A stretch of 36,151 bases of DNA from Pseudonocardia sp. (GTDB lineage: Bacteria; Actinomycetota; Actinomycetes; Mycobacteriales; Pseudonocardiaceae): contig JAQSWF010000017.1 of NCBI GenBank assembly GCA_029266775.1, positions 1 through 36,151 on the forward strand. The letters are read 5' to 3'. Positions 2,831-11,625 of this stretch are shown piece after piece (the stretch's first letter is position 1; every line of letters begins with the position of its first letter). A program made the translations under genes and the position numbers. A model generated the notes under the pieces. It worked only from the letters and a program-made list of their open reading frames with translations, made no database searches and was not told the origin of the DNA.

Positions 2831-5317
2831 TCAGCCGGCGAGGTCGAGGACCGTCAGCGTGCCGCTGTTCAGGTTGGTGACGTAGGCCTGACGACCGTCG
2901 GGGAGCACGGCGACGCTCGTGGGTGCCTCCCCGGTCGGGACGGTGGCCGTCACGCGGTAACCGTCGACGGAGATCACCGTCATGTTGTCGCTGTCGACGT
3001 TCGTCGCGTAGAGGTGCCGCCCGTCCGGCGACCAGGTCACGTCCTGGGGGTGCGTGCCGACCGGGACGACGGCGGTCACCTGCTGCCGTTCGGTGTCGAT
3101 CACGGTCACCGAGTCGCTGTCGTAGTTGACGTTCGCGACGAGCGGCCGGGTGGGGTGGACGGCCACGCTGTGCGGGCTGATCTCCACCGGGATCTCGGCG
3201 GCCACGCTGCGGGTGGCCGTGTCGATCACCGTGATGACGTTGGACTCGTGGTTGGCCGTGTAGGCCTGCGTGCCGTCCTGCGAGAACTCCACCCAGTGCG
3301 GGTTCGGCTTGACCCGGATGTCGGTGACCAGCGCGTTGGCCGCGGTGTCGATGACCGAGACGGTGCCCGAGTCGTGGTTGGGCACGTAGATCTCGGACCC
3401 GTCGGGCTTGACGTCAAGGGCATAGGGGCGGCTGCCGACCTTGATCGTCGTGACGACGGTGTTCGTCTGCGTGTCGAGGACGGCGACCTCGTTGATCGAG
3501 CGGTCGGGGTCGTTGAAGACGCTCACGTAGAGACGGTGCCCGTCGGGGGCGAACGCCAGGTACTGCGGGGGGCCGTCGGGGATGGGGATCGTGGCGACGA
3601 CCTCGCTGATCGCGGTGTCCACGACGGTCACGACACCTGCGGCGCGGTTGGCGATGTAGGCGAACTTGCCGTTCGGTGCGATCGCGACGAAGCCCGGAGT
3701 CTTTCCGACCGCGACCTGTCCACGGACCGGCGGGATGGGCACGCTCGCGGCGATCGCTCGCGGCACCTCCGCGGGAGCCGGCGCGGGCGGCGGCAGCACC
3801 ACGGGTGAGGGAAGCGGCGCAGCGACGCTCGCGTCGACGTCAGTAGCTTGCGGGGTCCGGGCCTGGCTCAGGACATAGGAGACCGACGCGGCAAGCACGA
3901 GCAGCACGGCGACGGCGGCGAGGACGCGATTCCTGGTGCGGTGTCGTGCCGCAGGTACGGGCGGGGTGGCGTCGGACCACTCGGTCGACCAGCCTGCGAG
4001 CGGCGGAGGGGTGCGGCTAGCGTCGGCAGGCCGGGCGCCGTCCTGCCCGGCCCGGGGCGGGGGTGGGTCGGTGCGGGTGGCCGTTCCGACGGCCTCGAGC
4101 GGACCCGACGGTCCGCGGACCTGCTCGGCGCGGTCGGGAGCTGCCGCCCGAGCGGCGCCGACCACCTCGGACGTCGCGAGGGCAGCCACCGTCTCCACCC
4201 GCTCCGCACGGTCCTCGGCGAGCTCTGCCTCGGTTGTCTGCACCGGGGCCTCGCCGGCGAGTGCTGCGGCGCCCAGCGCTACCGCGTACTTGGGGTGGGC
4301 GTCGATCAACGTGGGGCGGTTGAGGGCCTCTGTGATCATCCTAGCTACGAGCGGGATCCGCGAGGAGCCGCCGACCAGCAGCACGGCGCTGAGCGCGGCG
4401 GGCTCCACCTGAGCGGAGCGCAACGTGCGGACCAGCGCGCCGATGGTCGACTCGATCGGCGCCCGGATCATGTCCTCGAACTCCGCCCGGGTCAGCCGCA
4501 CGTCGTGGTACCGCTGGGGCAGGAACACCGGGATCGTGGTCTCGGTGTCGATCGACAGCGCCTCCTTGGCCGCGACGCAGTCCTGACGCAGCCGTGCCAG
4601 CGCCACAGCGGTCGGCGGGTTGCTCATGTCCAGTTCGGACAGCGCACCTTTGAGGCTGTAGTTGACGTGGGCGAAGATCGCGTCGTCGAAGTCGACGCCG
4701 CCGAGGCGCTCGATGCCTTCCGGTGTGCCGAGGATGTCGATGCCGACGCCGTCGGTCCCGGCGCGCTTGCGGAGGACGGTGGCGTCGAAGGTGCCGCCCC
4801 CGAGGTCGTACACGGCGACGGTGTCACCGTCGCGCAGGTGCCGGGTCGCGGCGTAGTGGGCCGCGGCCGCCTCCGGCTCGGTCACCATCAGCGCCTGCGC
4901 CACCCCCGCGACCTGCGGGACCTCCTCGAACAACTCGCGCCGGTACGGGCCCCAGTTCGCCGGGTGCGTCAGGACGATCCTGCCCGGTGCGGCGCCTTCG
5001 GTGTCCGTGACGCGCGCGATCACGTCGCCCAGCAGCGTCCCCAACAGCGCGGTGACCACATGCGGCGCCCCGCCGAGCATCACTGGCGTCGGGTCGCCGA
5101 GACGGCGCTTGAACTCGCGGCCGACGCGGTCCGGGGCGCTGATCGCGCGGCGCTGCGCGGCCTCGCCGGTGACGATCGAGCCGTCGTCGCGGGCGTAGAC
5201 CATCGCCGGCATCACCACCGAGCGGTCGCCGAGGGTGAACATCTCGACCCGCGACGCGTGCGCGACAGCGGCCGCGACGAACGTCGTGCCGAGGTCCACC
5301 CCCAGGCTGTACGGCAC
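2831..5317 (-). CDS. Hsp70-type ATPase fused to a seven-bladed YVTN propeller through one membrane helix
   Basis: This 828-residue protein starts at GTG 5317, behind AAGGAGG; the longer open frame upstream is non-coding. Residues 1-355 form an actin-fold Hsp70 nucleotide-binding domain. It has phosphate-1 LGVDLGTTFVAAAV (5-18), phosphate-2 VYDLGGGTFDAT (169-180) and the adenosine motif VLLVGGSSRIPLV (312-324). The usual substrate-binding beta sandwich and lid are absent. A Pro/Ala/Glu-rich linker (356-460) leads to one membrane helix (464-484, VLAAVAVLLVLAASVSYVLS) and a second Pro/Ala linker. Residues 541-828 then hold seven repeats of the form P-x-x-V-A-x-x-P-D-G...Y-V-x-N...V-x-V-I-D-T. 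Arg-rich flanks before the helix suggest the ATPase is cytosolic and the propeller outside. It probably links an external signal or ligand to an ATP-driven switch. It is divergent from the kinase operon with 194 bp between. Domain calls are firm; role is inference. Confidence 0.92.
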   Translation of the reverse strand: MPYSLGVDLGTTFVAAAVAHASRVEMFTLGDRSVVMPAMVYARDDGSIVTGEAAQRRAISAPDRVGREFKRRLGDPTPVMLGGAPHVVTALLGTLLGDVIARVTDTEGAAPGRIVLTHPANWGPYRRELFEEVPQVAGVAQALMVTEPEAAAAHYAATRHLRDGDTVAVYDLGGGTFDATVLRKRAGTDGVGIDILGTPEGIERLGGVDFDDAIFAHVNYSLKGALSELDMSNPPTAVALARLRQDCVAAKEALSIDTETTIPVFLPQRYHDVRLTRAEFEDMIRAPIESTIGALVRTLRSAQVEPAALSAVLLVGGSSRIPLVARMITEALNRPTLIDAHPKYAVALGAAALAGEAPVQTTEAELAEDRAERVETVAALATSEVVGAARAAAPDRAEQVRGPSGPLEAVGTATRTDPPPPRAGQDGARPADASRTPPPLAGWSTEWSDATPPVPAARHRTRNRVLAAVAVLLVLAASVSYVLSQARTPQATDVDASVAAPLPSPVVLPPPAPAPAEVPRAIAASVPIPPVRGQVAVGKTPGFVAIAPNGKFAYIANRAAGVVTVVDTAISEVVATIPIPDGPPQYLAFAPDGHRLYVSVFNDPDRSINEVAVLDTQTNTVVTTIKVGSRPYALDVKPDGSEIYVPNHDSGTVSVIDTAANALVTDIRVKPNPHWVEFSQDGTQAYTANHESNVITVIDTATRSVAAEIPVEISPHSVAVHPTRPLVANVNYDSDSVTVIDTERQQVTAVVPVGTHPQDVTWSPDGRHLYATNVDSDNMTVISVDGYRVTATVPTGEAPTSVAVLPDGRQAYVTNLNSGTLTVLDLAG

Positions 5318-5511
5318 AGCCGCCTCCTTGACGAGCCTGACGAGCCTGTTCGTTGTCAGGAGTGTTCGCGGCGCAATCCAAATACCTACGAGCCACCCGG
5401 AGCAATACCGGGGCATTAACAATGTCTCGACGAAAGTCGCGGGGGACAACCCTACCTCTGCCTGGGGCCGGCCCCCTGTGATCCGCCGGCCGCGGCGATG
5501 ACACTCGCCGC
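5318..5511. promoter_or_regulatory. Divergent promoter region, Hsp70-propeller gene and kinase operon
   Basis: These 194 bp separate two genes that read away from each other, so both promoters must be here. A direct repeat of GACGAGCCT lies at 5330-5338 and 5339-5347 next to the Hsp70-propeller ribosome site. An AT-richer patch near 5413-5426 (CATTAACAATGTC) is the best candidate for a -10 box on the plus strand. No clear operator palindrome. Confidence 0.4.
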
Positions 5512-6201
5512 ATGACGGTCGAGCCCGCGCCCACCCCTGCCGGCTCAACGACCCGTCTCGGCGCTCCGCCGGGCCCGGCCTCCGCCAAGCCTGCTGCCGA
5601 CAGCGACGACGAGGCGCGCGCCCGGCGGACCGCCCAGGAGCAGTGGGTCCGCCTTCGGCATCTCGAGCGCCAGCTCCACGACGGTGCCGCGCTGCGGATC
5701 TCGGCGCTGGCACTGCGGCTCGGCATGCTCCGCCACCGCATGCCGTCCGACGAGCAGCAGTTCCAGGCCGCTGTGGAGGCCATCCAGGACGAGCTGCACC
5801 TGGTCCTGCAGGAGCTGCGCGACGTCGCGGGGATGCTGTATCCGCCTTTGCTCGACGAGGCGGGCCTCGGGCCCGCACTGCGCGAGGCCGCCGCGCGCTG
5901 CTCACGGTCGGTCAGGATCGACGCCGGTACCGAGCGCTTCGGTCCGGCGGCCGAAGGCGCCGCCTACTTCGCGGTGCTCGGATGTCTGGCCGCGGAACCG
6001 CGCGAGGGACGGGACGACCCGGTCGAGGTCGTCGTCCGCGGCGAGAGCGGCGACAACGGCGACGGCAGGACCCTCGTCCTGCTCGTCTTCGGCGTCGACC
6101 CCTGCCATGCTTCGACCGTTCACGACGGCGTCCGGCTGCTCGGCGGTACCGCCGTGACGGGCGAAACCGGTCTGATCACCGTGAGGATCCCATGCGAGTA
6201 G
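5512..6201 (+). CDS. Histidine-kinase-like protein with HisKA_3 helix and degenerate ATPase
   Basis: A 229-residue soluble protein. After a Pro/Ala-rich leader (1-35) comes a HisKA_3-type dimerisation segment, RHLERQLHDGAALRISALAL, with the phosphoacceptor candidate His56, and a second helix ending in LRDVAGMLYPPLLDEAGLGP. This is the usual LuxR-family kinase pattern. The following region (about 130-229) should be the GHKL ATPase, but the N-box (E-x-x-x-N) is missing and the glycine boxes are not recognisable, so ATP binding is doubtful. It may act as a phosphotransfer or dimer partner. Its stop overlaps the response regulator start by 10 bases, implying coupled translation. The start ATG at 5512 is the first in frame after the promoter region. 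Confidence 0.8.
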   Translation: MTVEPAPTPAGSTTRLGAPPGPASAKPAADSDDEARARRTAQEQWVRLRHLERQLHDGAALRISALALRLGMLRHRMPSDEQQFQAAVEAIQDELHLVLQELRDVAGMLYPPLLDEAGLGPALREAAARCSRSVRIDAGTERFGPAAEGAAYFAVLGCLAAEPREGRDDPVEVVVRGESGDNGDGRTLVLLVFGVDPCHASTVHDGVRLLGGTAVTGETGLITVRIPCE

Positions 6202-6869
6202 CGCTCGCCGAAGACGGCGCCCTGTTCCGCGAAGGACTGCTGATGCTGCTGAAGGCGGCGGGGCACGAGGTCGTGGCCTGCGCCGCCGGTGGGGACGAGC
6301 TGGTCGCGCTCCTGCGCACCCAACCGGTCGACGTCGCCATCCTCGACATCCGGATGCCACCCGAGCCGGACGGCGGGTTGGTGACCGCGGAGCGGCTGCG
6401 GGCGGTGCATCCCGAGCTCGGTCTGCTGTTCCTGTCGCACTACGCCGAATCGCACTACCTCATGCGCATACTCCAGATCGGCACCGATTCGATCGGCTAT
6501 CGGCTGAAGGAGAAGGTGGGCAGCGTCGACGTGCTGACCGACACGCTCACGCGGATCGCCGACGGTGAGATCGTCATCGAGCCGATGCTGGCCAAACGTC
6601 TCGTCGAGCGGCCGCGCAACGAGCGCAAGAGCGTCGTCTCGGCCCTGTCCGAGCGCGAGATCGACGTGCTGCGCCTGATGGCCGAGGGCCGGTCGAACAC
6701 GGGAATCGCCGGGCAGCTGTTCGTCACGCCCAAGGCCGTCGAGAAACACATCGCCAACATCTTCGGCAAGCTCGGGCTGCACGCCGACGCCAGTGAGCAG
6801 CACCGCAGGGTGCTCGCGGTCCTGACCTATCTCCGTTCGCAGCGCGACAGCGAGACGAGCGATCGGTAG
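6192..6869 (+). CDS. NarL/LuxR-family response regulator
   Basis: 225 residues beginning MRVALAEDGALFREGLLML. The receiver domain (1-120) has the acidic pair Glu7/Asp8, the phosphorylation site Asp52 in VAILDIRMPP, Ser82 and Lys106 (YRLKEK). The LuxR helix-turn-helix (about 150-200) reads LSEREIDVLRLMAEGRSNTG, then IAGQLFVTPKAVEKHIANIF. It should bind DNA as a dimer after phosphorylation. The gene overlaps the kinase-like gene upstream by 10 bases and is followed after 5 bases by a second kinase-like gene. It is the only receiver protein in the cluster, so three kinase-like neighbours may all feed into it. All catalytic receiver residues are present. Confidence 0.95.
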   Translation: MRVALAEDGALFREGLLMLLKAAGHEVVACAAGGDELVALLRTQPVDVAILDIRMPPEPDGGLVTAERLRAVHPELGLLFLSHYAESHYLMRILQIGTDSIGYRLKEKVGSVDVLTDTLTRIADGEIVIEPMLAKRLVERPRNERKSVVSALSEREIDVLRLMAEGRSNTGIAGQLFVTPKAVEKHIANIFGKLGLHADASEQHRRVLAVLTYLRSQRDSETSDR

Positions 6870-6874
6870 GAGCC

Positions 6875-8170
6875 ATGAGCCGGGCGTTCGTCGCGAAGCT
6901 GCTCCGGTTGCTCGTCGTCGCCGGCTGGACGGCGGGCATCTTCGCGGTCGTCGTGATCGCGGTGGACCGCGCGTCGGGCGCCCCTGCCGTCCTGCTCCCG
7001 TTCGTCGCTGCGATGCTCGCGGCCGCGGTGATCGTCTGGACCCGCGAGCCGCTCGACCGGTTCGTCGGCGGGCTGACCGGGCACCGGTTCACCACGCCGT
7101 ACGCGGTGCTGGCGGAGACCACGGCACGGGTCAACGCGGGCTCGCTCGACCAGGCACTTCCCGGCCTCGCGCAGGTGCTCGCCGAGGGGACCGGTGCCCA
7201 GCGGGCCGCCGTCTGGCTGATGGTCGAGGGGCGACTCGTGGAAACGGCGGCGTTCCCCGCCGAGGCCGACTCGTCCGCGGTCGCGGACAACCTGGCCGTG
7301 CTGCTGGCCCGACCCCACATCGACCACGTCGTCCCGGTGCTCGACGGGAGCGTGCTGCGGGCCGCGCTGGTCATCGACAAGGAGGACGGGTCGGTGACGG
7401 CGCCCGACCGACAGCTCGTACAGGAGGTGGCCGACAGCGCCGGACTCCTGCTGCGGAGCGTCCAGCGCGGTGCGGAGCTGCGCCAGCGCGTGTCCCGGGC
7501 CGAGGAGCTCGCCGTCGAGCGGCGGGAGTCCCGCGAGCGGCTGACACGGGCCCGGGAGGTGGAGCGCCGCCGCCTGGTCGCGGAGCTCTCCCATGCGACG
7601 ACCGACCGCCTCGCGGCTCTCCACGCGGCCCTGCGCGGGGCGGAACGTCAGCTGGACGCCGACCCGCGGGCGGAGCCGGTCCTGACGCGGCTCGGGCAGG
7701 CCCGCGCCGCGCTCGACGAGCTGTTGGACCGGTTCCGGGTGATCGCCCGTGGCGTGTACCCCGCCATGCTCCGTGCCGAAGGACCGGTCACCGCCCTCGA
7801 GGAGGTGGTCACGGACCTTCCGCGCCCCGTGCGGCTCACCGGCGGTGCGGCCGCCCGCCTCGGCTGGGAGGTGGAATCGGGGATTTACCACCTGACCGCC
7901 GCCGCGGTGACGCACCTCGGCTCTGCGGTGGACACTGAGCTGCACGTGCACCTCGAGCACCGCGACGGTCGGCTGTCTGTGCGCGTCGACGACCCTGCGC
8001 TCGAGCCCGGCTCGTCGAAGGGGTTGCGGGAGGCACTGGCGGGCGACATCGAGCGGCTCGCGGCGCTCGGGGGCGAGGCGGAGGTCGCGGAGCACGCCGC
8101 CGGCGGCACCGTCACGGCCTGGCTGCCGGACCGACTCGAACCCCTCGTCGAGTCCCGGATACGGTCGTGA
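6875..8170 (+). CDS. Membrane sensor kinase homologue, probably catalytically degenerate
   Basis: This 431-residue protein starts at ATG 6875 behind AGGAG. Two membrane helices lie at about 8-29 and 36-56, followed by the family's typical junction (LDRFVGGLTGHRFTTPYAVL). A GAF-like domain spans about 80-190. Next is a coiled coil and a HisKA_3 segment (REVERRRLVAELSHATTDRL) with His240 retained but the usual D-G-A-Q after it replaced by A-T-T-D. The GHKL region lacks the N-box asparagine (IYHLTAAAVTHLG where E-A-L-x-N is expected) and has weak glycine boxes. It looks like a pseudokinase that pairs with the full kinase downstream. Its stop overlaps the start of the next gene (GTGA). Family is clear, loss of activity is inferred. 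Confidence 0.85.
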   Translation: MSRAFVAKLLRLLVVAGWTAGIFAVVVIAVDRASGAPAVLLPFVAAMLAAAVIVWTREPLDRFVGGLTGHRFTTPYAVLAETTARVNAGSLDQALPGLAQVLAEGTGAQRAAVWLMVEGRLVETAAFPAEADSSAVADNLAVLLARPHIDHVVPVLDGSVLRAALVIDKEDGSVTAPDRQLVQEVADSAGLLLRSVQRGAELRQRVSRAEELAVERRESRERLTRAREVERRRLVAELSHATTDRLAALHAALRGAERQLDADPRAEPVLTRLGQARAALDELLDRFRVIARGVYPAMLRAEGPVTALEEVVTDLPRPVRLTGGAAARLGWEVESGIYHLTAAAVTHLGSAVDTELHVHLEHRDGRLSVRVDDPALEPGSSKGLREALAGDIERLAALGGEAEVAEHAAGGTVTAWLPDRLEPLVESRIRS

Positions 8171-11100
8171 TGGCCGGGTGGCGCGGCGTCCGTCACGGGG
8201 CCGCCGCTCGTGCGGCGCTCGACGTCCTGATCGTGCTGTGCTCGATCGTCGCGACGGGCTGGCTCGCGCTCGGCGCGCTCGCGCTGGCCACGCGTGACGT
8301 GCCGTGGGTGGCGCGGGCCGTCGGGGCGGCTGCGGCCGGCGGCAGTGCGTGGGGTCGGGTGCTCATCGATGCGGCCTCGGCCAGCGAGCCGCCGAGCCAG
8401 GCCGTCCTCGACTACGGTTTCAGCCTCCTGAACCTCGTGCTCGCCGGCGTGCTGCTCGTGGCCGGACGGCGGACGTGGCCGGTCCGGCTGCTGGTCCTCG
8501 CCCTCGTCGGCTCGGCAGGAGCGTTCAACCTGCAGTCCCACATCGCCGCGCGTGCCGTCGAGTCGGCCACGGGGCTCGCCGTTGGCGGCCTGCATCAGAT
8601 CGTGCTGCACGGCATCGCCTGCGCCGCGTACATCACGGCCCTGCTCGTCTTTCCCACCCCCTCGTGGGACGGCCTGCCGGGGGGGAAGTCCGTCCGCCGC
8701 GGGCTCGTCACCACGGCGGCGGTGACCTTCCTCCTCGTCGGGGTCGGCACGGCGCTGCTGCCGCACACGATCAGCTGCGTGGTGTTCTTCGGCTTCCTCG
8801 TGCCTGTGGTGGGGCTGCTGGTGCTGCCGCGCCGTATCCGACGTGGACCAGGCGCCGAGCTCCGAACGCAGGCCCGTTTGCTGTTCAGCACGCTCGTCGG
8901 CGGGTTCGCGATCGCGGTGGTCCTCGCCGTCGTGACGCTGCTGCTGAGCCAACTGACGGACGCGCCGGACCTGACGCTCGTCGATCCGACCGCACACGCG
9001 CAGGGGGCGATCGCCGGCGAGCCGATCGCGCTGCTGTTCTGGTTCGCGCGGCTCGAGTCGGCCGCGATCCCGGTCGTCGTGCTGGTGGCCACGACCTCGG
9101 ACCGGCTGTGGGCTGCTGAGCGCTGGTTCAGCCGCGCCCTGGCGGTGCTGCTCGTCGGGGTGGTCGGTGGCGGCGCTTTCGTCGTGCTGCGCACGATCGC
9201 GGTCGGGCTCGTCGGAGCCGGGGGCTCGGACGTCCTTGCGGCGGTCGTGGTGGCGCTGCTGCTCGGGCCGCTCTACGTGCGCGCCGAGCGGGTCGTCGAC
9301 CGGCTCCTGTACGGCACCCGCCCGGCGCCCTACCGCGTGCTCGCCGACATCACCGCCCTGTCTCATCTCTCGGCCACCGACTCGACATCTGCGCAGGCAC
9401 CGGACCTGGGCCGGGTTGCCCAAGCCGTCGGCCTCGCCCTCGGCGCCCGCGTGTGCCGGTTGACCGTGTACCGGCCGGGCCTGCGGGACCGGACCTACAA
9501 GTGGGCCGAGAGATCGGACCGCTTCTCGGCCCGCGACCTGCTCGACGTGCCGGTCCGGCACGGCAACGGCGAGGTCGGCCTCCTCGCCGTGGACCGCCAG
9601 GCGGTGTCCGGGCTCACCGAGCAGCGCCAGCATCTCCTCGCCGACATCGCCGATGCGCTCGGCGTCGTCCTCGAGGCCAGCCGCTCCGGGATCGAGCTGG
9701 AGCGGCAGCTGCGCGCCGCGCTGGCGCACGCCGAGGAGATCGCCGTGTCCCGCCGCCGGATCGTCGCCGAGATGGACGGCGAGCGGCGGCGCATCGAGCG
9801 CGATCTGCACGACGGGGCGCAGCACCACCTGGTCTCGTTGCGGCTGACCCTCGGTCTCGTCGAGCACCACGTCACCACCGGCGACCTCGGCCAGGCCCGG
9901 TCGTGGCTGCGGAAGCTGACGGAGCAGCTCGACGCCGCAGAGTCGGTGCTCGCCGCGACCGCGGACGGCGTCTCGTCGCTCGTCCTGTCGGAGCATGGAC
10001 TGGTGGCCGCGCTGGAGGCGCAGCTCGCTGCCGCTCATCCACCGGTCGGCTACGACGCTGCCGGCGTCGCGCCGGGCCGGCGGTTCCCGGCTGCGGTTGA
10101 GGCGGCGGTCTGGTTCTGCTGCGCCGAGTCGGTGGGCAACGCCCGCAAGCACGCGCCGAACGCACCGGTCAGCGTGCGGCTCACCGAGCGCGTCGGTGTC
10201 CTCGCGTTCGTCGTGCACGACGAGGGACCGGGCTTCGCCGTCGACGCTGCGGACGCCGCAGGAGGTCGGGGTCTGCGCAACATGACCACGCGTATGGCGG
10301 CGGTCGGCGGCACCGTGACGATCCGGTCCGCGCCGGGCGCGGGTACCGCGGTGGAAGGAACGGTGCCACTACCCGATGCTCCGGAGTCGGACGTCGCCTC
10401 GGCTCCCGTCGAGTCGGTCATCCCCGAGTTGCTGCCGTCCGACGACGCACCGCACCGGCCGAGCCGGTTGACCGGGCAGGTGCGGGAGGTGCTCCGGACA
10501 GCGTGCAGCGTCTACCGCCACACCAGAGCCGAGGAGCGGGTCGACGAGCTGATCAGTCGGCTCGACGGGCCCGTGCGCGTCGCCGTTCTCGGCACGTCCG
10601 AAGCCAGCCGGCAGATGCTGGTCGAGGCCCTGACCGGCGCTCCGACGGCTCCGGCCCGGCGCCCGGTCACGCTGATCGGCACGCCCGACGTCGACGGGGC
10701 AGCCGCGGACGCGTTCCTCCTGCTCCTGCACTACGGCCGCGCCGCGGACCTCGGGCTGCTCGATGCGCTGCACACCGCCGGGCTCACCGGCGTCATCGCG
10801 GTGCTGGCGCGGGCCGACGAGCCGGGCGACGTCGCGGACCGCGCGGTGGGGGAGTACGGCCAGGACCCCGCCGTCCGCCGCGTCTGCCAGGCCGTCGTCT
10901 CCGTTGCCCCGGACACGGCCGTCGCCGCCGCACGACTGCGCGAGCAGGATCACCGCCTGCTGCGGCAGTGGGCGACCGCGCCCGGGCTCGATCCGATCGA
11001 CCCCGATGGAGGCGATGTTCCCGACGAGCTGGCGCCGCTCGTCGACCGCCTCGGTCCGTCCGCTGCCCGCCGGGCGCTGGGACTGGTCCAGCGTGGGCAG

Positions 11101-11625
11101 GGGGACACCCGGGCGGCCCTGGCGGCCGCGCTGGTGCGACACAGCGGGCTGGACGACCTACAGGAGTTGATCACATCACGATTCGTCCACAGTGGTGACG
11201 TGCTGCGAACGCGGTCCGTGCTGGCCGGGCTCGACACCCTGCTGCGGTCGACACCGATCCCGGGGAAGGACGCGCGCGGGCTGGGCTACGAGCTCGAACG
11301 GATCCGGACGGGCGCCCACGAGCTGCGCGAGCTCGAGCTCCTCGACCTGCTGCGGTCCGGCGACCTGCCGCTGCCGCACGACGAGCGCCGTGAAGCCGAG
11401 CGGCTGCTGGGTGGCGACGGGAGCGATATACGGTCCCGCCTCGGGCTGGACGTGGATGCGACGACGGAGCAGGTGTCTGCGGCGGCGGCAGCGCTGCCGG
11501 CCCGGTGGCGGCAGGTCGCCGCACATCCGGTGGCCTCGGCCCGGGTCCGGGAGGCAGCGCAGATCCTCGTGCGCGCCGCCGAGCAGCTGATGATCGAGGT
11601 GGATGACCCGACCGTCGCCCGCTGA
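8167..11625 (+). CDS. Membrane histidine kinase fused to a degenerate dynamin-like GTPase
   Basis: 1152 residues. About ten or eleven membrane helices fill residues 15-375 and end in the family hallmark RVVDRLLYGTRPAPYRVLAD. A GAF-like domain follows (395-500). The kinase core looks active: HisKA_3 GERRRIERDLHDGAQHHL with His548, N-box ESVGNARKHA with Asn658, and glycine boxes DEGPGF and GRGLRNM. After a linker, residues about 765-1152 resemble actinobacterial dynamin-like GTPases. The evidence is VRVAVLGTSEASRQMLVEAL (P-loop position, Gly809), an A-R-A-D-E motif where T-K-A-D is usual, and the C-terminal pattern LVRHSGLDDLQELITSRF and GAHELRELELLDLLRSG. The P-loop lysine is gone and the segment between the P-loop and G3 is very short, so it is a pseudo-GTPase. 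Translation is coupled to the upstream gene. Confidence 0.9.
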   Translation: MMAGWRGVRHGAAARAALDVLIVLCSIVATGWLALGALALATRDVPWVARAVGAAAAGGSAWGRVLIDAASASEPPSQAVLDYGFSLLNLVLAGVLLVAGRRTWPVRLLVLALVGSAGAFNLQSHIAARAVESATGLAVGGLHQIVLHGIACAAYITALLVFPTPSWDGLPGGKSVRRGLVTTAAVTFLLVGVGTALLPHTISCVVFFGFLVPVVGLLVLPRRIRRGPGAELRTQARLLFSTLVGGFAIAVVLAVVTLLLSQLTDAPDLTLVDPTAHAQGAIAGEPIALLFWFARLESAAIPVVVLVATTSDRLWAAERWFSRALAVLLVGVVGGGAFVVLRTIAVGLVGAGGSDVLAAVVVALLLGPLYVRAERVVDRLLYGTRPAPYRVLADITALSHLSATDSTSAQAPDLGRVAQAVGLALGARVCRLTVYRPGLRDRTYKWAERSDRFSARDLLDVPVRHGNGEVGLLAVDRQAVSGLTEQRQHLLADIADALGVVLEASRSGIELERQLRAALAHAEEIAVSRRRIVAEMDGERRRIERDLHDGAQHHLVSLRLTLGLVEHHVTTGDLGQARSWLRKLTEQLDAAESVLAATADGVSSLVLSEHGLVAALEAQLAAAHPPVGYDAAGVAPGRRFPAAVEAAVWFCCAESVGNARKHAPNAPVSVRLTERVGVLAFVVHDEGPGFAVDAADAAGGRGLRNMTTRMAAVGGTVTIRSAPGAGTAVEGTVPLPDAPESDVASAPVESVIPELLPSDDAPHRPSRLTGQVREVLRTACSVYRHTRAEERVDELISRLDGPVRVAVLGTSEASRQMLVEALTGAPTAPARRPVTLIGTPDVDGAAADAFLLLLHYGRAADLGLLDALHTAGLTGVIAVLARADEPGDVADRAVGEYGQDPAVRRVCQAVVSVAPDTAVAAARLREQDHRLLRQWATAPGLDPIDPDGGDVPDELAPLVDRLGPSAARRALGLVQRGQGDTRAALAAALVRHSGLDDLQELITSRFVHSGDVLRTRSVLAGLDTLLRSTPIPGKDARGLGYELERIRTGAHELRELELLDLLRSGDLPLPHDERREAERLLGGDGSDIRSRLGLDVDATTEQVSAAAAALPARWRQVAAHPVASARVREAAQILVRAAEQLMIEVDDPTVAR

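Follow-up and report, generated by a model that had tools for sequence, protein, structure and literature searches.

A histidine kinase fused to the remains of a dynamin-like GTPase is encoded in a window of 36,151 nucleotides (the whole stretch of DNA that was analysed) from Pseudonocardia sp., contig JAQSWF010000017.1 of assembly GCA_029266775.1. The gene occupies positions 8167–11625 of the forward strand, a stop-free open reading frame of 1152 amino acids (aa), in which a membrane histidine kinase is followed by a GTPase-dead dynamin-like module (open frame; Pfam). Judged by its domains and motifs, the protein is the active, membrane-bound sensor kinase in a NarL-type two-component system of several parts, and its predicted activity is autophosphorylation with transfer to the regulator. 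Homology and motif comparisons show its tail to be a former IniC-type dynamin-like protein, predicted to lack nucleotide binding. Across the related modules, the alignments show the G domain to be shrunk or removed and the stalk to be kept. The first-pass annotation, made from the sequence alone, had proposed a kinase with a nucleotide-dead dynamin-type module, and both the homology and the motif loss support it. That reading stands in part. The IniC-type source, the occurrence of the module also on a pseudokinase and the stalk as the part kept throughout the aligned modules were not mentioned there.

The kinase and its dynamin-derived tail

The kinase half begins with a hydrophobic membrane region of several predicted segments (8194–9288, aa 10–374; Kyte-Doolittle scan). 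It is followed by a HisKA_3 domain including His548 (9781–9939, aa 539–591; PF07730, E 4.5e-8) and a HATPase_c domain including Asn658 and the glycine boxes (10120–10374, aa 652–736; PF02518, E 1.5e-8; alignment), both above the Pfam cut-off; a GAF-like stretch of the same frame falls below it. The earlier numbering of these residues is right, and their motifs are intact in the translation, the Pfam matches and the alignment. The acceptor histidine, the N box and the G box of NarL-type (HisKA_3) kinases are all present, and a LuxR-type regulator lies within the kinase's gene cluster. Across 81 aligned rows, the catalytic residues are found in 79 (His), 76 (Asn) and 76 (G-box Asp), and the rows without them are those without a full kinase. 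Antisense frames over the kinase (777 aa, 7885–10218) were rejected, as they fail the codon-position G+C filter which the forward frame passes, and the homology lies on the forward strand.

The tail of about 390 residues (10456–11625) alone had no match in the Pfam, NCBIfam or PDB sequence searches. A homologue of the tail is encoded on another contig of the same genome, a 489-aa protein with 36–40% identity (E 2e-33 to 4e-33), which carries GKVKAGKS, DTPG and RAD and matches the bacterial dynamin-like protein 2j68 (E 4.9e-8) and IniA 6j72 (E 4.7e-6). Its gene overlaps that of a 601-aa GTPase (GEFKQGKS) at the latter's end, and a 323-aa glycine/asparagine-rich open frame precedes the GTPase gene. 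We take these three genes to be iniB-, iniA- and iniC-like from their order, size and motifs, not from comparison with the mycobacterial genes. In locus L038 (1913–8922), the own-genome iniB-iniA-iniC-like set is followed by a convergent 855-aa LuxR-type frame, which may be a candidate counterpart of IniR.

When the alignment of 52 fused modules (window included) was compared with that of 29 stand-alone relatives, the best-scoring loci of a search, the hhalign probability was 100 (E 2.8e-46) across the G domain and the stalk; the kinase and pseudokinase alignments, used as controls, gave 0.3% and 0.7%. The stand-alone relatives are presumably IniC, by their operon position and size. Here, the module is the tail of a kinase instead of a stand-alone gene beside an IniA-type partner, and the IniA-type gene lies on another contig. 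A profile of the module-containing alignment, which includes rows with intact motifs, hits GTPases and, weakly, BDLP (E 0.014). Such homology to intact IniC-type proteins bears out the first-pass assignment of residues 765–1152 as dynamin-like.

The motifs of nucleotide binding were compared with those of the own-genome paralogue. The dead P-loop (10591–10614, forward strand) reads GTSEASRQ in place of GKVKAGKS and does not conform to the G1 pattern GxxxxGK[ST]. The G2 stretch is absent (about 67 alignment columns), and GTPD stands where the paralogue has DTPG, the G3 motif (DxPG). A G4-like ARAD is present at 10807–10818, forward strand, and RAD is thus retained. The replaced P-loop lysine, the nearly vanished G2 and the kept G4-like motif, all named in the first pass, are seen in this alignment.

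The AlphaFold2 model of the module (52 sequences; pLDDT 91.7, pTM 0.88) consists of a G domain and a helical stalk. Stalk helices with counterparts in a G-domain-less module precede the G domain (10465–10566, model residues 16–49). They are followed by the degenerate G domain (10570–11193, residues 51–258; also delimited by structure alignment) and by the C-terminal helical stalk, which is kept in the aligned modules (11194–11604, residues 259–395). In VIA-align of the 1000 best Foldseek chains, model residues 51 to about 258–267 lie on GTPase folds with Z up to 14.5. Over both parts, mitofusin-1 is matched at residues 9–303 (Z 13.3, 235 residues aligned, root-mean-square deviation (rmsd) 5.9) and IniA at residues 18–296 (Z 12.2, 214 residues aligned, rmsd 7.3). 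The G-domain fold of the model is clear, and a helical stalk follows it, so the structure prediction did not return a fold unrelated to dynamin GTPases. Because plain GTPase folds outrank mitofusin-1 and IniA in this comparison, the dynamin-type assignment rests mainly on the sequence homology. A role of the module in membrane sensing, also raised in the first pass, is not supported: its hydropathy peaks at 1.67 in the window and 1.58 in its stand-alone relative, against 2.10 in the IniA-like protein, yet the fused relative L135 reaches 2.11.

Erosion, distribution and history of the module

The GxxxxGK[ST] motif is found in 0 of the 61 modules from named genomes and in 2 of the 41 of a second, overlapping set that includes the window; both of these belong to one genus (g14) and read GNHRCGKTT. 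A P-loop-like pattern with the lysine replaced occurs in 13 of the 43 named kinase-fused tails (12 seen in place, 8 with Thr). Among the stand-alone relatives, 25 of 29 keep the motif. Because four (L006, L011, L024 and L029) lack it, the decay of the IniC-like partner may predate the fusion, and such decay may be common in dynamin pairs. The module tails range from 175 to 1037 aa, and the 15 named modules shorter than 260 aa have no G domain or just a short piece of one (e.g., L131 and L200). The remaining part of these short modules matches the stand-alone stalk (hhalign 99.8%, E 3e-28). A G-domain-less module of 214 aa is predicted as a confident helical bundle (AlphaFold2 pLDDT 92.7, pTM 0.79), in which the helices before the missing G domain continue into those after it, in both the model and the alignment. 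The graded series from an intact P-loop, through a replaced lysine and a folded but dead G domain, to a removed G domain provides an unusually complete record of pseudoenzyme formation.

As judged from gene content and sequence, the locus is conserved as a small HisKA protein, a NarL-type regulator, a GAF-like pseudokinase and the kinase. The pseudokinase, not the module, served as bait in the survey of 200 family genomes, in which 42 of the 43 best places were taken, the window included. Followed from the window through this survey, the module is fused in frame in 39 of the 41 other family loci, on the kinase in 16 and on the pseudokinase in 23; of the remaining two, one has the module in another frame and one has none. 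Because these loci were chosen by the pseudokinase, the fusion is not a matter of chance. When the module is borne by the pseudokinase, the kinase lies on the opposite strand (19 of 23) or was not found (4), and when it is borne by the kinase, the kinase and pseudokinase genes stand in tandem (16 of 16).

A protein scan of genome contigs with the module as query found no relative, and the rescan used the pseudokinase alignment. With this alignment, the scan of named genomes gave 90 relatives, and 80 loci were kept: 43 carry the module on the kinase, 17 carry it on the pseudokinase and 1 has it separately, and in 19 it was not found. Four of these 19 are cut by or near a contig end (L149 and L183 run off the contig, L137 and L150 lack a full kinase). 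The others include four Paractinoplanes, two Geodermatophilaceae, Gandjariella and five Frankia loci, the last with a regulator and pseudokinase facing the kinase. Nine loci of family f32, from genomes partly the same as the Frankia ones, are arranged in this manner and have no module. The pseudokinase-borne module is found in part of the Pseudonocardiaceae, and the kinase-borne one in most Pseudonocardia, Actinomycetospora and some Geodermatophilus loci. Two locus copies, one without and one with the module, are present in each of Pseudonocardia alaniniphila (L139/L146) and the metagenome-assembled genome RYN_114 (L148/L140); the record of L146 is titled a plasmid.

The history of the fusion was examined with two trees, both built by a quick method without bootstrap. 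The core tree holds 80 rows with Frankia as the root, after three of 83 loci without all three genes were dropped, and keeps five rows without the full kinase segment (L137, L150, L189, L200 and L206). The module tree leaves out L142, which runs off the contig, and L132, in which the module is in a separate frame. In the core tree, a single branch of 55 rows (support 100) unites the kinase-fused loci, together with module-less rows, and the pseudokinase-fused loci form two groups outside this branch. In the module tree, one branch (support 94) parts the 29 stand-alone from 62 fused proteins. The trees are consistent with a single capture of the module, with two captures as an alternative; a four-row pseudokinase clade is placed differently in the two trees. 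The loci of Geodermatophilus and Actinoplanes/Paractinoplanes are nested within Pseudonocardia in the core tree and were therefore probably acquired sideways.

Ratios of nonsynonymous to synonymous substitution (dN/dS, Nei-Gojobori) were calculated as descriptive values for 16 pairs, some of which share members, with the stalk defined as the C-terminal 145 codons. The stalk gives 0.07–0.62 in 16 of 16 pairs, the kinase 0.05–0.33 and the linker with the G part 0.06–0.56; gaps occur in the stalk of 2 pairs and in the linker and G part of 11. By these ratios, the stalk is under purifying selection. Of 44 kinase-fused rows, 35 have a first helix that can be recognised, and in these the kinase and the module are joined by 2 to 597 residues; such variable linker length fits a tether better than a rigid coupling. 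In L074 and L162, both of P. dioxanivorans, a linker of about 600 residues rich in Ala, Gly and Pro joins the kinase to the module.

Possible roles of the stalk

We infer from the architecture, ancestry and erosion shown above that the stalk may act as a nucleotide-independent scaffold or docking module in signalling, a reading to which we give an even chance. The helical stalk would be a nucleotide-independent protein–protein interaction module, carried on a linker whose length ranges from 2 to about 600 residues. It would gather the kinase and the pseudokinase into a higher-order complex or dock this complex to a third protein, with the envelope dynamin IniA as the first candidate, and the assembly through the stalk would set the kinase output to the regulator. 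The nesting of the kinase-fused branch among the pseudokinase-fused loci suggests that both kinases belong to one complex. The loss of GTP binding would lock the module in its docking state. An example of such behavior is the Escherichia coli dynamin-like protein RdcA, which, according to PMC6510439, binds and activates DgcE directly and remains fully active as the Walker A mutant K82A; its authors conclude that nucleotide-free RdcA activates and that the GTPase activity is needed to clear GTP. Since RdcA is active in the nucleotide-free form, a module unable to bind GTP would stay permanently in such a state.

Several observations weigh against the scaffold. In the window's clade, the stalk dN/dS (0.48–0.62) exceeds that of the kinase (0.26–0.33), and between the window and its two nearest relatives it is 0.48–0.51, a moderate constraint. 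In five gap-free pseudokinase-fused pairs, the G part (0.06–0.26) is about as constrained as the stalk (0.07–0.19), and the remaining G part of these modules may be important too. In the model of the window's module, the G domain retains its fold. Foldseek of this model against the PDB gave no match at E 0.001 or better, IniA standing at E 0.028 (probability 0.92). Foldseek of the eroded 214-aa module gave weak helical-bundle matches alone (best E 0.18, none at E 0.001); in VIA-align, all its Z values are below 7, and no dynamin row is among the 50 listed, which is no counter-evidence. The 19 module-less loci among the 80 named ones mark the module as dispensable.

In a specific form of the scaffold idea, which we regard as doubtful, the module mimics IniC as a decoy and assembles together with the IniA-like dynamin, so that the kinase reads the assembly state of this envelope-stress dynamin. 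The IniC-type source of the module and the iniB-iniA-iniC-like genes of the same genome agree with it. Docking to IniA gains appeal from the usual occurrence of bacterial dynamins in pairs within one operon (PMC6104087) and from the suggestion that IniC regulates IniA or hetero-oligomerises with it (PMC6715688). An IniA-type match (E 1e-10) was found in 42 of 42 family-f1 genomes tested, 41 of them with the module, versus 3 of 9 module-less genomes of the Frankia family f32. However, this contrast tracks family lines and may be phylogeny alone, and two of the 42 genomes (genus g17) have distant matches only, of 30–31% identity. In a set of 19 genomes, six of which are shared with the previous set (P. 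dioxanivorans and five Frankia), eight carry the module, two of these at a second locus; the match is present in six and absent from two Geodermatophilus, which led to the rejection of a strict IniA requirement. Because the match is absent from these two module-bearing genomes and present in 7 of the 11 module-less ones, the general scaffold keeps its even chance, and the IniA form is held as doubtful.

The module could also be a decaying passenger, a captured gene tail that is functionless and eroding. The piecemeal loss of the G domain, the several lineages that stand among carriers yet lack the module entirely, and the moderate stalk dN/dS of the window's clade would be expected of it. We consider it unlikely, however: the stalk keeps its frame, with dN/dS of at most 0.62 in all 16 pairs and gaps in no more than 2 of them, the stalk without a G domain is predicted to fold confidently, and the module has been retained in different genera as well as in four Geodermatophilus loci that lie among those of Pseudonocardia. 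That the G domain binds a nucleotide non-canonically and in this way regulates the kinase is very unlikely, for although its high-confidence predicted fold in the window protein (with the Z values to GTPases given above), the kept RAD, the GNHRCGKTT of two modules of one genus and the constrained G part of some pseudokinase-fused pairs favour it, G1, G2 and G3 are lost in the window protein, and the G domain is missing or reduced to a remnant in 15 named orthologous modules.

If the stalk is a scaffold, a membrane-remodelling machine would have been recruited into signalling through loss of the enzyme and retention of the surface used for assembly. The role of a dynamin stalk without GTP becomes a testable question, and the locus gives a way into the study of actinobacterial envelope stress and of a possible link of IniA/IniC to signalling.

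Neighbouring genes and related systems

Three forward-strand genes precede the kinase. The first encodes a small soluble HisKA_3 protein of 229 aa (5512–6201; PF07730, E 8.4e-9; translation), which has the acceptor histidine and a degraded ATPase half with no N or G box seen, and overlaps the start of the regulator. It could be a phosphotransfer partner, by its domain content. It was matched (E 1e-6) in 117 of 135 loci, but in some loci (L173, L188 and L198) this match coincides with the main kinase, which leaves fewer than 117 separate small genes. The second is the NarL/LuxR-type response regulator (6192–6869; PF00072, PF00196), which starts near 6192, not 5643, and is 66–89% identical across 41 family loci. 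The third encodes the GAF-like pseudo-histidine kinase of 431 aa with N-terminal hydrophobic helices (6875–8170; GAF below the Pfam cut-off; alignments), with serine at the histidine position and degraded ATP-binding boxes.

Divergent from the signalling operon, an Hsp70-like protein with a C-terminal beta-propeller is encoded on the reverse strand (2831–5905; PF00012, E 1.3e-43); the true start of its gene is probably below 5512. An Hsp70-like match lies close by in 37 of the 41 family loci, in 67 of the 80 named ones and in 3 of 14 from other groups, some module-less loci (L176 and L188) among them. The Hsp70-like protein is a possible target or partner. The stalk end of the window (11380–11622) and of its relatives has a J-like layout of a short helix, LGL..A..V..AA, a long helix, HP and a long helix. 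The motif LGL..A..V..AA...W......HP resembles a J domain. Among the 50 VIA-align rows of the eroded module, three are DnaJ-like (Z 5.8–6.3), the third of which, xRbj, we take to be so. A J domain is not supported for the C-terminal hairpin, with no Pfam DnaJ match and with HP lacking the D in the window and most aligned modules; hhalign against a two-sequence J profile gave 6–22%, and the J reading is kept as a lead only. In a bolder version of the scaffold reading, which seems to us improbable, the dynamin stalk freed from its GTPase would be a new class of signalling domain coupling kinase and pseudokinase to the dynamin machinery of the cell. In that case, envelope remodelling would be sensed directly by the two-component system, and the J-like hairpin could make the neighbouring Hsp70 a docking partner.

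Among the matches listed in the open-licence literature on dynamin-like proteins with histidine kinases, two-component systems, pseudokinases and pseudoGTPases, no title or abstract opening describes a kinase-dynamin fusion. This limited search agrees with the first-pass view that a membrane kinase with a nucleotide-free dynamin-type module is not known as a described architecture, and it is not proof. The kinase domains and the LuxR-type regulator resemble NarL-family systems with HisKA_3 kinases (best NCBIfam models MctS, LiaS, UhpB and MadS), but the window scores far under the curated cut-offs of these models and has a pseudokinase and a dynamin-derived tail. A pseudo-histidine kinase in Actinomycetota is known from the Corynebacterium ChrS variant, with no dynamin-like module in the entry as listed (PMC9491836). 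In the actinobacterial conservons, a kinase-like protein is coupled to a GTPase, but this GTPase is Ras-like and separate, and the entry as listed shows no dynamin-like module (PMC13343842). Streptomyces DynA/DynB are likewise an actinobacterial dynamin pair, with a role in the divisome; the main text of PMC8748795 contains neither 'histidine kinase' nor 'two-component'. The module is homologous to the presumed IniC-type partner of mycobacterial iniBAC, and such a gene set is present in its own genome; IniA and IniC are stand-alone proteins with GTPase domains, whereas the module is fused to a kinase and has lost its nucleotide motifs (PMC6715688). In RdcA/RdcB-DgcE, a dynamin-like protein feeds directly into a membrane signalling enzyme, as is proposed here for the module, and its activating form is described as nucleotide-free; unlike the module, RdcA is a separate soluble GTPase without fusion, which is described as needing GTP hydrolysis to reach this form and has a cyclase as its output.

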